From positions 1 to 39,192 of the forward strand of contig NXFV01000354.1 in assembly GCA_002803225.1 (NCBI GenBank): 39,192 nucleotides of DNA. Reading direction: 5' to 3'. The position numbers and the translations under genes are program-made. Origin of the DNA: Gamarada debralockiae (Eukaryota > Ascomycota > Leotiomycetes > Helotiales > Hyphodiscaceae). Positions 4,075-13,965 of the stretch are shown in pieces. The notes below the pieces were generated by a model, which was not told where the DNA came from, did not search any database, and saw only the letters and a list, made by a program, of their open reading frames with translations. Position 1 is the first letter of the stretch; each line of letters begins with the position of its first letter.

Positions 4075-4372
4075 CGTAGAACCTTCTGTTTAGATTTGCT
4101 TTTTGGGGGGAGGCTTTTGAGGTGTGGTTACACAACATTGCGATTTTGTCTACGTCCAGTGACGTTCTGTTCTAAGGCATGAAATCTGATTACGAATTTT
4201 ATGCGAGTGATTTGTTGTTTGCGAGAGTCTTTTGTCCCACAAAACATTCGCCCAAGGCAATAGTCACACCGCGGTCTCTGCCCGACGAAATGGGGGCCTG
4301 GAGATATAATGACCAGCTCACCATCCACCTACGGCTCATCAACGTAAGTACTCTCTCTATGCAGAAGGCGCA

Positions 4373-5275
4373 ATGGCTTCTATCAAAACCTACATGCTTG
4401 TCCCTCACCACGATTTTCCTGCAGATGGTCCTATCGTACTTGGAAGCATCATCCTTGATCCGCGAGAACCGGGCGAGAGTCTGAACGAAGCAGAGATACC
4501 CGAAATACCGATCAAGTATAGCAGCCATAAAGACAACTGGGAACAAACTGTCGAGTCTATGAGGAATGGTAACGCTGGAGTATGGGCACGATGCGTCAAT
4601 ATTCTCGGGTTGGGAGGGTCTTTGGGAATGGGTTTCGACACTGTGACCGTCGATCACTACCGGTTCGCAGATTTGGAAACCACATTCTTTACCCCATCTC
4701 AGGATTACATTGAACAGGCTGTCAAGACGCCTAAGATAAGACTGTTTCTTGCGGGGGCCCGATACGCTCCCGTGTACATGATAACAGGCCTGAAGATAGT
4801 TCGTGGACCGGGATCTCATGTCATGAGCAGGAGGACGACGACACAAGGAGGCCAGGCAAATGTTGGACTTTCGGGGTCTACAGATGTTAGCGGCTTTGCG
4901 GTCGGCTCTGGTGATGTGTCGCTCCGGCGGGGAGGTACGACAAATACAAATAATTCTTATAGCGGGAGCTCTGACTTCGTGATCGGATATCGGCTGGGCA
5001 AAATAACTTTCGAGAGGGGCTGGTGGTCTGGGAAGGGGCCCCATACTCCTAAATATCAGCGGGAGGTAGCTGGAGCTGTGCTGGGAGTCAGCGAAGATCG
5101 AACGAATCAGGATTCCCGTTCCAATAACGATGTGGACGTCATCTTCGAAGGTGAAGAGGTCATTGCCGAGGAGCTTCGAGGGCAGAACTTGGTCGCAGTT
5201 ACGGCTATTGATGAAGGAGATGAGAAGGATTGCCAGTGCTTCATCATACCACTTCCAGGCACAGATCATAACTAG
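4373..5275 (+). CDS. Gasdermin-like pore-forming protein, 300 aa
   Basis: A single-exon gene. The start ATG at 4373 is the first in a frame open to the TAG at 5273-5275. No signal peptide is seen. Residues around 100-150 and 205-215 carry the pattern I associate with fungal gasdermin-like proteins (RCD-1/HET-Q1 type). A 'DLETTFFTPSQDYIEQAV' segment is followed by 'PVYMITGLKIVRG', then a Gly/Ser/Thr-rich linker and 'DFVIGYRLGKI'. The length fits that family (about 250-300 aa), with an N-terminal pore-forming domain and a short C-terminal inhibitory tail, here acidic and ending in PLPGTDHN. In the known pair, a clustered protease removes the tail and the N-terminal part permeabilises the plasma membrane, killing the cell. 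The convergent subtilisin gene ends only 89 bp away, which supports the call. The family assignment rests on motif memory and context, not an alignment. Confidence 0.58.
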   Translation: MASIKTYMLVPHHDFPADGPIVLGSIILDPREPGESLNEAEIPEIPIKYSSHKDNWEQTVESMRNGNAGVWARCVNILGLGGSLGMGFDTVTVDHYRFADLETTFFTPSQDYIEQAVKTPKIRLFLAGARYAPVYMITGLKIVRGPGSHVMSRRTTTQGGQANVGLSGSTDVSGFAVGSGDVSLRRGGTTNTNNSYSGSSDFVIGYRLGKITFERGWWSGKGPHTPKYQREVAGAVLGVSEDRTNQDSRSNNDVDVIFEGEEVIAEELRGQNLVAVTAIDEGDEKDCQCFIIPLPGTDHN

Positions 5276-5364
5276 TGCATTGCTTCACTGCCTTCCAGAC
5301 CAGTATTTTACAGCAAAACACCCATTATCAAACATAGATACCCATACTCCGCACATTCCTGACC
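5276..5364. promoter_or_regulatory. Shared 3' region of the convergent pair
   Basis: Only 89 bp separate the stop codons of the gasdermin-like gene and the protease gene, so both transcripts must end here or overlap. Antisense overlap could couple their expression; this is inference. Confidence 0.4.
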
Positions 5365-7352
5365 TCAATTTGAGCTATTCAAACATTCCAAAATGTCTGT
5401 TATGAGAGTAAGAATATTGTCGTCCTTGCGGGTCTTGTTAAACAGTTTCCATGGGCGGATATAATGAAACCCCCCTCTTTCTTCCACCAATTGGTTGACA
5501 AAGACCGCTTGCATACCTTTACGGCATCGGAGTTGCAGGTACTGTTCATCGTTCATACAGTTCATAAGAGAGAATTCAAGAACACATGCAGCTACCCCAG
5601 CCGCGATAGGGGTTGCAAAGGATGTTCCAGTCATCCTTCGTTCGAGAGTCTGACTTTTGGCCAGTTGTGCCTGCACTTTGGCAGGTTGTGTTGGCTCTGC
5701 CTCAGGGGTCACAATAGATATCCCGGTCATCTTTCGTTCGAGAGCCTCCCTTTCACCAAGATGTATCAGCCAGGCAGATTTTACCGCCTCTCCAAGAGTA
5801 GCAAAGTGATAAATTGCGCTCTCCATTGGTGTTGGGTTGCACTTCGAGCCGTTTCCCCATCCATCGGTGGAGAAAATACAGAATACGTCATCATACCTGG
5901 CCGGGTAGGTGACGGGGGAATTCCCTCCGTTATTAGATGCTGCTGCGAAAATGAGTATGTCTTTCGAATATGCATCTTTGACGGCGTCTTCAATCTCTTT
6001 CTGATGATTTCCTAGACCAAAAGACATGGTGATAATATCGACATTGAGATTTATAGCCCATCTGATAGCCTAAATACTCCAATTTTAGTCTCTTTCAACA
6101 AGAATCTCTATCTGCCAGGCTCACCTTCCCAATGTTGTTGTCCGGTGGAATTGTCCCCTCTTCAGTTACTTTCGCAACATACAACTCCGCATCAGGAGCG
6201 ACGTCAAGAAGTAGATTGGCAACATGAGTTCCATGGCCAAAACTATCCTCCGGACTATTGTTATTGTTGACAAAGCTTCTCGCAACTTGGATTCGCTTAG
6301 TCTTCAGTGCACCGGAGATAAAAGGATGCCTGGAGTCAATGCCCGTGTCGAGGACGGCGATCTTCACAGCAGGTATGCGTCGAGGATACTTCGATGGCTT
6401 GTCGGTATACATGCGAACTGACGACTTTAGCTCAGCTATCCACTTGTCCGCCCTGATGGACCTATTGTTGATTAGTTATCATAGTCAGCCAGAAGGGGAA
6501 CAGGTGCCTTCACTTTTCTGCATCGTCATCAATCCATTTTGGTTGTCCATCCAAAGTCAGTCCATCAAATGAACAAACTGCCGTTGGAGGCCTGGATAAA
6601 GAGGCAGATGAGTTCTCTGGTGTAACCAAACCTGGAATCTGGATCGAATCTGAAGGCGTTCGAGATGTCCTCTGAATTGGTCCTGCTGGAGGAGGTAGCA
6701 AACACTTCCTGAGGTAGAGATCGAAGCCCTCGGCATTGACAACGCGGCAATCGGTCTCTGTTGTTTTTAAGGAGTCCTTTTCGAACCACTGAACCTTGAT
6801 TCTTCCAAGGAACTTTACTGTCTTTAATTCAATGTGTCCATAGCCTTGTTCTTTGAAGGAGCATTTTGGATTCAAGCGTTCGACGAGACTCTTTGATATC
6901 CAGTCATCGTCCAAGTCGTCAACAAAAGTCGCTTTAGCTTCGATCAAATCCTTCTTCGAGTGCGATTTGATCTTTATGGTTCTGAGAACGTCGCTGAGAC
7001 TTGGTCGGTGAGTGGGCTGCCATAATTAGACAAGGCTGCGTTCGATGACGGTTCAACCAACCTCCTCGTTCAGTTTTAGGGCAATACCTGAGTCCCGTGT
7101 GTTTTTTAATTTGGGTGATGAAGAATAATTGATTGGGTTCGTAGTATCTTCATCTGAAGATAGAGAGGATGACGAGGAGGAATAGCTGGATCCACCGAAG
7201 GGCGATTCAGAACATGGTTTTCGTCCCCCGTTTTGTTGCGGCATTCGTCGGCGCTCTGTCATGATTTGCATCGACGCATTGTGATAGCTCTTGCCAGCGC
7301 TTAGGTCAGGAGAATGCAGAGAATCATCTGTAAAGACGATCTTCGGAAGCAT
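5365..7352 (-). CDS. Subtilisin-like (S8) protease, 611 aa, partner of gasdermin-like gene
   Basis: Exons are 7352-7062, 7016-6514, 6461-6125 and 6069-5365. Introns of 45, 52 and 55 bp are in phases 0, 2 and 0 (total 1836 bases). The catalytic domain is in the C-terminal half: Asp303 in AVLDTGID, His341 in FGHGTHVA, oxyanion Asn423 in AAASNNGGN, and Ser527 in GTSFATPIAAG. There is no signal peptide, so it is probably cytosolic, as in HET-Q2 and protease-type fungal NLRs. The first ~100 residues are low-complexity and serine-rich. Residues ~120-200 resemble a degenerate retropepsin-like fold (see findings). An in-frame, diverged duplication of the block before and including the catalytic Ser places a second Ser motif (GISIVTP, Ser495) 32 residues upstream. 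No NB-ARC, ankyrin or TPR region follows. The first intron has a weak donor (GTTGGT), so the N-terminus is less certain than the rest. Confidence 0.88.
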
Positions 7353-11214: not shown

Positions 11215-13514
11215 TCAAGCGCTCCCCTCTCTGACCCATTTGTTATATCGATTGATTCGTTCATAATGATATGACGAGACATTGGGCACATTGCCGCCCC
11301 CAAGAACCTTTTCTAGGAGACAGGTTTCGGTAGAGTCAGGCTTGGGCAGCAAAGTCAACCTCCTAGCCCATTCCTCTTTGATTGTACCATCAGAAGTATA
11401 AGCGCGACAAGTGAAATCGCGCCATAAGTAGACTGAATGAATCGCCACATCTTCAGTGACATCGAACCATTCTCCATGTTCTGATTGAACTGCTTCGTTG
11501 TTATACTCAGGGTGATGGTGACCCTCGCAGCTTAGCTTGGCTCGGAAATTCTGCAACTCCAAATGAACAAGCTTTGTGACTCGCTCGGGAAACTTAGTAC
11601 GTATGGCTATCACGTTGACTTGATCGAAATCTTGGAGCTGGCATCCGGCTTGAAATTGCTGTTTGCGTATGTTGATATCTGTAGCTTTCCCAATCTTGCA
11701 TAGCTTTCTATGGGGCGACTTGAAGATGTGCACATAGCCTCCTAGTAAATATGGCGAGTTCATCTCTTTGATTAATTCCTTGTCAATGATATCTTGAGAA
11801 TGAATCCGATTTGTCTGCTGGATGGCTCCTTGGAATGAGGACAGAATTGTAGGTGTCTTCGGCCGGGAATCTTGAGTTACAGTGTTTTGTTCCTGGGGAA
11901 TCGCTTCTTTGATGACTTCTTTAGATGCCGAAGAGGCAATGGTTTCTGACGGAGGACTCTCGTCCATCGGTCGCACATTAATGAACACCGGCGCTGGAAC
12001 TGACTGACGCTGGCGCTTGGTTCTCAAATCGTCGGCTGGATGATCTTGAGGGTGTTAGCATTTTGTGATGTAATTGTATCTTTGAAGCTCACCAGGCGAA
12101 GACGCACGCTCAAGAAAATCCTTGCGACTTAGCATGGTCCCAAATTTAGGTTCGAACGAGCGGCTGGGTAATGAGAATTCAAACTTTTGCGTTGGTGAAT
12201 CCAGTGGTGTCCTTCCTCCAGCATGCTCAGTGCTTCCGAAGTCGTATTTCTCCCCCAAACGTGAAGATAGATTAGAAGTTGATCTCGGTCTATTCAACGA
12301 CGTTGTTCGAAAGGAAATATCCTCCCTCTCGTCGTTCGAGAAAAATTGAACGGACATCCAGAAATCGGCGTTGAACTTCGACATTGCTTCTTCCTTTGAC
12401 AATCGTTGCTCTGAAAAGACGGCCCACTTCTCAGAGTACATTCGTGGTAGGTCTCCAATTGCATGCCCAGGACAGAGAACCAATCTAGGTAGGGGTTCTA
12501 TGTCAAGCTCTGATCCAGATGTAGAGTAAGAGCTTAAAAGCTCTCGAGCCTTAAGCAGTTGCTCTTTATGTATGACTGCCGGGCATCGCCAACCATCTGA
12601 AGTCATGGCGATACATTTCAGATTTTCCTGGTACATGATCTCGAGGTTTGCTACTCCCAATTCAATCGAGGCGTAAGACTCCATGCCTACAAGAACCGAA
12701 ATTTCTGGCAGATTTTGGGCAGCACGATCAGGCTCGGGTTCAGACGGACTCGGTTTTTCATAATCGCTGTTTATTTGCACCTGAGCTGCTCTATCCAGGT
12801 TATTCAGATAATTCTCGTCTATTGCCAAGTTAGCTGGATGACTATGAGAGTTAAGAATATAAGACCGAAAGCCCTAAAACTCCGTGCATCAACCTGACAC
12901 TTTTTGAAGTCATAGAATAACTTGCCTTTGGTGGAACTGTTAGGTGCAGAAACTGGCCTTCCTTGATTGTCTGGTGTAGATCTGGAGGACATAGCAATAT
13001 CGGGCAAAGAGCTTTCTTTATTGTCAATTACAATGGCTGATTGGTAGTCGACAACTGTACTCTCGAAGTGGGGATGGTCTTGCTTCGAGCCGTATACTGA
13101 CAACCAGTCGAGAAACAACGCATTGTGATAAACGGTCTTTCCCCAGTGCGTGGAACAGAGCATCAATGGCATCAGTTTAATAGGTGCCTGGATGTCAGTT
13201 AAGTCGAATTGATCCAAATTGGCAAGGAAATTTGAGTCGAGCAAAGTAATTTCTTTGCGACATCTCCCAAAAGAATGAAAAGCGGCGCAAATGACGAAGC
13301 CAGTCTGTGACGTCTTCAGGTTCTCGAGCGCTTCATTGAAGGTTATGACCTGTCGTCTCGATCGTGGTTTGTAGCTATTATGCGGAACCTTGAGGGCAGT
13401 TTTGACGCTATTTTTGAAAGTCGAGAGGGTCGGCATTGGAAGTGTGCGAGCGAAGATTGGGTGTGAAATAATAGATGAGGTTTGCTGTATCGAGTCGAGA
13501 ATTGAGAACATCAA
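11215..13514 (-). CDS. T5orf172 (GIY-YIG-like) domain protein, 727 aa
   Basis: Exons are 13514-12901, 12841-12093 and 12035-11215. Introns of 59 bp (GTGTCA...CATAG, branch TTAAC) and 57 bp (GTGAGC...TCCAG, branch CTAAC) are in phases 2 and 1 (total 2184 bases). The C-terminal exon carries the T5orf172 signature: GGYVHIF (about 553-559), KIGKATD (568-574), an Arg near 578, ERVTKLVHLEL (606-616) and HGEWFDV (641-647). This GIY-YIG relative occurs in fungal MUG113-like proteins and is presumed to bind or cut nucleic acid. Two upstream modules share the layout C.A....G.RC...(30-40)...LC..H, one in exon 1 (CAAFHSFGRC...LCSTHWG) and one in exon 2 (CIAMTSDGWRC...LCPGHAIG), suggesting paired Zn-binding units. 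The first intron is the less certain join. The gene is bracketed by repeat copies A and B. Confidence 0.82.
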
Positions 13515-13965
13515 AACGAATTAAAGAGCACATCGAATGTCGCACAAAGCTAAAGATAAGGGGCCGGTAGATGCCCACGTGTGGCTGATTGCATAATCCT
13601 GTTTCAGGGATATGCAGGAGCGCTCTTGTTTTGAAAAATTGTTGAATGTTGGTGTTGATTTTATCCAACTTGAGGAGGGGAGTAAGCGCCGGGAATTCCC
13701 CCGAGAATTGCGCTTCCTCATCGGTTCGGCGCCAACCTCTCCTCTCAGTGAACCAAAACGGTGATGAAACAACCCGCTCGGACCTATGAGAAATCCACGC
13801 GCGTTCATCTTTGGGAAAGGCCCAAGTGTAACATTACTGGTCTTGTGCAGTGGCACTTATGGGAGCAAGTTAAATACAAGGTGTAGACTGGACCGAAATA
13901 AAAGCTTTATTCTGGAGCTCTAGTTCAATACATATCTGCTTCTTGATTGTTTGAAGAATTCCGCC
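13515..13965. other. Upstream region of the T5orf172 gene
   Basis: A presumed promoter region of about 450 bp. Two short minus-strand frames overlap the coding start and have no recognisable domain. No gene is supported. Confidence 0.4.

Follow-up and report, generated by a model that had tools for sequence, protein, structure and literature searches.

We analysed contig NXFV01000354.1 of the helotialean fungus Gamarada debralockiae (assembly GCA_002803225.1), whose full 39,192 nucleotides we call the window, and focused on two genes that lie tail to tail in its first 8 kb. On the plus strand, a single-exon gene (4373..5275, stop included) encodes a fungal gasdermin of 300 amino acids, as supported by its open reading frame (ORF), phmmer matches, relatives and structural model. 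On the minus strand, a four-exon gene (5365..7352, stop included) encodes an S8 subtilisin-like protease of 611 amino acids, as supported by its gene model, Pfam matches and homologues. The protease is of the Q2-L type, the name given to the proteases of clustered fungal cases (PMC10989679). The two genes are convergent, with stop codons 89 bp apart.

Gasdermin gene and domain layout

The plus-strand ORF translates to exactly 300 residues and contains both motifs quoted in the original prediction, including DFVIGYRLGKI. Among PDB chains searched with phmmer, the best sequence match was RCD-1-2 of Neurospora crassa (expectation value, E, 7.5e-7), and HET-Q1 of Podospora anserina also matched (E 2.1e-5). 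RCD-1 likewise gave the best PDB matches in a fold search with the AlphaFold model of the protein. A protein homology search found 40 relatives, the closest of them 80% identical. By sequence and predicted fold, the protein is a fungal gasdermin of the RCD-1/HET-Q1 family. The gasdermin-like identity first proposed from the DNA letters is refuted by neither of the two outcomes set out as refuting it, the sequence search pointing to RCD-1-2 and HET-Q1 instead of an unrelated family and the model to the RCD-1 fold. Antisense to the gene is an open frame of 361 amino acids (stop to stop, 4199-5284, minus strand), which is longer than the gasdermin ORF and probably spurious; we take the plus strand as coding because the 40 relatives match the plus-strand protein.

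Alignments and model together delimit a pore-forming domain followed by a short C-terminal extension made of a linker and a cap. The pore-forming domain comprises residues 1-215 (4373..5017, plus strand) and has the gasdermin fold in the model; its alignment spans cover residues 19-213 for RCD-1-2 and 9-225 for HET-Q1, and in the model the final core strand extends to residue 215. Residues 216-252 (5018..5128, plus strand) form a predicted flexible interdomain linker with low sequence identity and a predicted local distance difference test score (pLDDT) under 50 at residues 217-251. Conservation by region was computed on 39 of the 41 alignment rows, with the second gasdermin of the genome kept apart and two rows lacking tail coverage left out (P0020, which is truncated, and P0039, which lacks the CxC motif in its tail). 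Mean pairwise identity was 0.71 at residues 201-215, 0.28 at 216-232, 0.50 at 233-240, 0.17 at 241-252 and 0.58 at 273-292, such that two conserved segments are found within and behind the variable linker.

The original prediction had placed a candidate cleavage linker earlier, in a Gly/Ser/Thr-rich region at about residues 148-200. The composition is real, and part of this region also has low model confidence (pLDDT under 50 at 160-187), but it lies within the span aligned to RCD-1-2 and HET-Q1 and upstream of the best conserved strand region at 201-215, and we rejected it as the interdomain linker. Two relatives, P0038 and P0040, lack some 35-45 residues matching about 150-195, which may reflect either a gene-model error common to both or a genuine loss of a hairpin region.

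Candidate cleavage islet and acidic cap

Within the linker, residues 234-238 form an islet, GAVLG (5072..5086, plus strand), that is conserved across the family as GA[MVLF][LWMF]G amid variable, low-confidence sequence. Among the counted rows, G234 is kept in 38/39 and A235 in 35/39, while position 237 is hydrophobic in all 39 (L 27, W 8, M 2, F 2). A comparable cluster arose in 23 of 100,000 shuffles of the 37 linker columns, and the five-residue window ranks 28th of 295 in the whole protein, equal in conservation to parts of the core. The second gasdermin of the genome carries GAMF at the same position. HET-Q1 is cut at F238 (PMC10989679; PMC12881547), and its PDB alignment pairs residue 225 of our gasdermin with residue 227 of the HET-Q1 chain, so that F238 projects gap-free onto residue 236, adjoining Leu237. 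Because the islet is conserved and hydrophobic and the HET-Q1 site projects beside it, the cut site is likely to be GAVL/G, with Leu237 as the predicted P1 residue. Cleavage there would free 63 residues with a computed mass of 6.9 kDa.

These residues include an acidic C-terminal cap (residues 253-300; 5129..5272, plus strand) with a charge of -11.1 and an isoelectric point of 4.05, which had been flagged in the original prediction as a candidate region for cleavage or inhibition. The model folds the cap as strand-helix-strand-strand (E254-260, H262-270, E275-280, E285-291), with pLDDT values of 81, 86, 68 and 69 in successive ten-residue blocks from residue 251. The family alignment shows a conserved motif in the cap at residues 278-293 (5204..5251, plus strand), with the consensus AIDExDxxECxCFxVP; D280, C287 and C289 are present in 39/39 counted rows. 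This candidate autoinhibitor would hold the pore-forming part inactive.

Subtilisin-like protease

The predicted protease gene has exons at 7352-7062, 7016-6514, 6461-6125 and 6069-5365, separated by three introns of 45, 52 and 55 nt that all follow the GT..AG rule. Pfam Peptidase_S8 matches the ORFs of exons 3 and 4 (7.9e-11 and 4.2e-12), and the catalytic triad consists of Asp303 (LDTG; 6347..6349), His341 (GHGTH; 6233..6235) and Ser527 (MTGTSFATP; 5620..5622), all on the minus strand. Asp303 and His341 are invariant in 8/8 aligned rows, and the GTS serine is kept in 7/8. The gene model reproduces the triad residues, orientation and distance given in the original prediction. The first 60 residues have no hydrophobic, signal-peptide-like stretch (best 12-residue mean 0.58), and such a start is consistent with the cytosolic location suggested there.

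The protease has 379 relatives at E up to 1e-3, and among the best 120 of these the best named one is ONS95_008900 of Cadophora gregata (9.9e-97), followed by a protein tagged PAC_01091 and one from Oculimacula yallundae. Many more-distant proteins in the same set carry DUF7580 or TPR beside the S8 domain, so that one kind of catalytic domain is combined with varied accessory parts. The PAC_01091 protein (P0044) is labelled Aspergillus udagawae, yet its tag has the prefix found for Phialocephala subalpina in P0061, and the record is possibly mislabelled; it also holds two S8 stretches.

Exon 2 (6514..7016, minus strand) encodes an N-terminal domain of about 110 residues, unassigned to any family, that is a candidate sensor. 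The domain is common to the relatives P0042 and P0043 and partly present in P0045. It matched no Pfam model at E up to 10, and a search of the genome up to E 1 gave no second copy. When residues 55-185 of P0042 were compared with 5.8 billion proteins, two of 90 candidates had E up to 0.01, namely P0042 itself and P0043. The AlphaFold model, built on 4 sequences, was too poor to assign a fold (mean pLDDT 37.7). A retropepsin-like fold, an idea drawn from the residue pattern, found no support in Pfam, and none of the PDB sequence matches was a retropepsin (best value 0.16 for a profile of three sequences and 0.78 for exon 2 by itself).

The gene contains a 61-nt direct repeat (5608..5764, minus strand; 96-nt offset, 74% identical). 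It adds 32 residues directly before the active serine, so that the intact motif MTGTSFATP is preceded by a degenerate copy, MTGISIVTP (residues 491-499). In the motif section of the repeat 31 of 39 nucleotides are the same, compared with 24 for the best chance match in 2000 exon shuffles. The insertion is absent from P0042 and P0043, the two nearest protease relatives. We rejected an intron in its place, as no in-frame GT..AG pair was seen by eye and the DNA repeat explains the extra residues better.

Recurrence of the pair and genomic context

We scanned the genome assembly (54.3 Mb, 1112 contigs) for gasdermins with two single-protein queries, a search by which distant members could be missed, and found two gasdermin genes. 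The second, on contig C189, encodes about 282 amino acids and is 26% identical to the first (1.4e-13). It forms a pair of the same layout (L003, 4968-8181), convergent with a 698-amino-acid S8 protease gene 160 bp away. This second protease has ankyrin repeats ahead of its S8 domain (Pfam Ank_2, 3.9e-74), and its S8 part aligns with that of the first protease over 336 columns at 35% identity (1.7e-46). The genome has at least 14 S8 matches on 11 contigs; with this lower bound as the count and uniform placement assumed, the chance of both gasdermin genes ending no more than 160 bp from an S8 gene is about 4e-9. Gasdermin-S8 adjacency in this genome is more than chance.

In Cadophora gregata, the gasdermin relative (ONS95_008899) and the protease relative (ONS95_008900) have consecutive locus numbers, and from these names alone the same pair is probably present there. 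Evidence for conservation of the pair thus consists of the second pair in the genome and the Cadophora locus numbers. A literature search combining fungal gasdermin and Cadophora found nothing.

Elsewhere in the genome, the start of contig C187 (L022, 91-702) carries another S8 exon of like look (ALRWAIQ..GTSVATSVAAG), whose upstream part is lost at the contig end; among ORFs of at least 120 amino acids in the first 10 kb of this contig, no gasdermin was recognised by eye. Elsewhere in the window, a minus-strand ORF at 11215-11967 has a T5orf172/MUG113 domain, and further minus-strand ORFs at 12055-13520 have no Pfam match.

Comparison with known gasdermin systems

The primary paper on two-gene clusters of Q2-L proteases and gasdermins in fungi is Clave et al. 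2022. One review puts the share of fungal gasdermin genes that cluster with protease genes at more than 80% (PMC12881547); another gives about 80% within 10 kb of or adjacent to a protease gene, and S8 enzymes as about 60% of Q2-L proteases (PMC10989679). Given these shares, the pair, with an S8 triad protease encoded 89 bp from its gasdermin gene (160 bp in the second pair), belongs to an already known kind. It resembles the described clusters in the adjacency of gasdermin and S8 genes and in a protease with extra, sensor-like parts (PMC12881547, PMC10989679). It differs in that the accessory parts described are WD40, ANK, TPR and NLR (PMC12881547), whereas ours is an N-terminal part unmatched in Pfam, and in that the gasdermin has the CxC cap motif. 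In the parts of the fungal gasdermin literature surveyed (including PMC12881547, PMC11138114 and PMC10989679), neither the linker islet nor the CxC cap motif nor the front domain of the protease is named, though any of them may be in print.

HET-Q1 and HET-Q2 of P. anserina share with our pair the gasdermin family, an S8 subtilase partner and a cut site that projects about one residue from the islet. The freed HET-Q1 fragment is shorter, at 40 residues and about 5 kDa, than the 63 residues predicted here. HET-Q2 has 388 amino acids (PMC10989679), and the N-terminal part of the 611-amino-acid protease is therefore extra relative to it. Saccharomyces cerevisiae is the reported heterologous host for HET-Q1 (PMC10989679). 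The arrangement also differs, as het-Q1 and het-Q2 are idiomorphs, that is, different genes at one locus (PMC12881547), whereas our gasdermin and protease genes occur together in a single genome. The claim in the original prediction that fungal gasdermin genes cluster with protease genes is thus borne out by the reviews, but the HET-Q1/HET-Q2 example chosen for it is not such a cluster. RCD-1-1 and RCD-1-2 of N. crassa are the closest match in sequence and fold, yet RCD-1 is reported to act through two meeting alleles with no proteolytic control (PMC12881547), unlike the present case with its adjacent protease gene and a cap behind a flexible linker. Gasdermins of bacteria are also clustered with protease genes; none was among the ten sequences matched up to E 10, and the genes here are convergent.

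Proposed mechanism and alternatives

We consider it very probable that the pair is a cell-death switch: the protease would cleave the gasdermin in the linker near Leu237, which would remove the cap and free the pore-forming part. The steps are drawn from HET-Q1/HET-Q2, from the two-gene cluster of P. anserina that pairs a gasdermin with the TPR-CHAT protease activating it (PMC12881547), and from the anatomy of the two proteins. The gasdermin would be made with its cap attached, and the protease would be restrained by its own N-terminal part until released by a signal. The released protease would then cut, the cap would depart, and the N-terminal gasdermin part would form pores and kill the cell. 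Within this scheme we infer the inhibitory role of the cap, the identity of the cutting enzyme with this protease, the position of the cut at GAVL/G, and the role of the protease's N-terminal domain as the sensor that would restrain it until triggered.

Because both genes share one genome, the protease must be restrained by something other than absence, and the mere presence of both proteins can hardly be the trigger. The same layout leaves the trigger named in the original prediction, incompatible fusion cells, without support: since het-Q1 and het-Q2 are idiomorphs and not neighbours, adjacency does not imply a fusion trigger, and although different strains fusing could be the trigger, nothing indicates it. 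In the Q2-L clusters, as here, the two genes share a genome, and one review suggests that these clusters serve in organismal defence (PMC10989679).

Several observations weigh against the proposed switch. No Pfam model matches the gasdermin protein, and its structural model is of limited quality (mean pLDDT 67.4, under 50 at core stretches 66-88 and 160-187), with a top Foldseek match at a root-mean-square deviation of 9.2 and template modelling scores of 0.45/0.61. The final strands of the cap reach a pLDDT of 68-69, and across all 41 rows the CxC motif is absent in P0039 while P0020 ends before it; the second gasdermin of the genome has a single cysteine at that position. The projection of F238 runs beyond the end of the alignment and takes PDB chain numbering as that of HET-Q1. 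For the protease, the introns are predictions placed by hand from sequence, the relative P0045 as annotated has no serine motif, and the enzyme could be impaired by the insertion of 32 residues next to Ser527.

This insertion is also the basis for reading the protease as catalytically dead or changed by partial duplication, with an intact gasdermin in a decaying pair or one whose protease serves as a decoy. The repeat and its absence from P0042 and P0043 favour such a history, but neither the frame nor the triad nor the GTSFATP motif is disrupted, and this loop also varies in length among relatives, being longer in P0043 than in P0042; we consider this reading very unlikely. Somewhat less unlikely is that the pair is an allorecognition (heterokaryon incompatibility) locus, at which strains would differ and death would follow only where hyphal fusion brings unlike alleles together. 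Both described fungal gasdermin allorecognition systems, het-Q1/het-Q2 and rcd-1, are incompatibility loci (PMC12881547); against this, gasdermin and protease genes lie side by side on one contig instead of as idiomorphs, and the closest gasdermin relative for comparison is 80% identical. That the genes are neighbours with no joint function, the subtilisin being an ordinary degradative enzyme, is highly improbable: nothing speaks for it directly beyond the spread of S8 matches over 11 contigs, and it is at odds with the adjacency of both gasdermins found to S8 genes, with the consecutive locus numbers in C. gregata and with a protease start that has no hydrophobic, signal-peptide-like stretch.

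The cell-death switch could also be more elaborate. We think it improbable, though conceivable, that these gasdermins form a subfamily with a latch of its own, in which the CxC cap, as folded in the model, would clamp the pore-forming domain behind the exposed islet, GA[ML][LW]G, as bait and its cysteines would sense redox state, a metal or a lipid. With a protease bearing a sensor of an undescribed family, two inputs would then have to agree before death.

Implications

Pairs of gasdermins and proteases in fungi are regarded as ancient counterparts of pyroptosis; how the proteases are controlled remains to be uncovered, according to a recent review (PMC12881547). The pair described here is a clear instance of what is expected in its kind, with a conserved cap and a predicted site of cleavage. 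The two pairs in one genome, with a shared catalytic domain and different N-terminal parts (an unassigned domain in one and ankyrin repeats in the other), offer a natural test of how the front of the protease sets the trigger.
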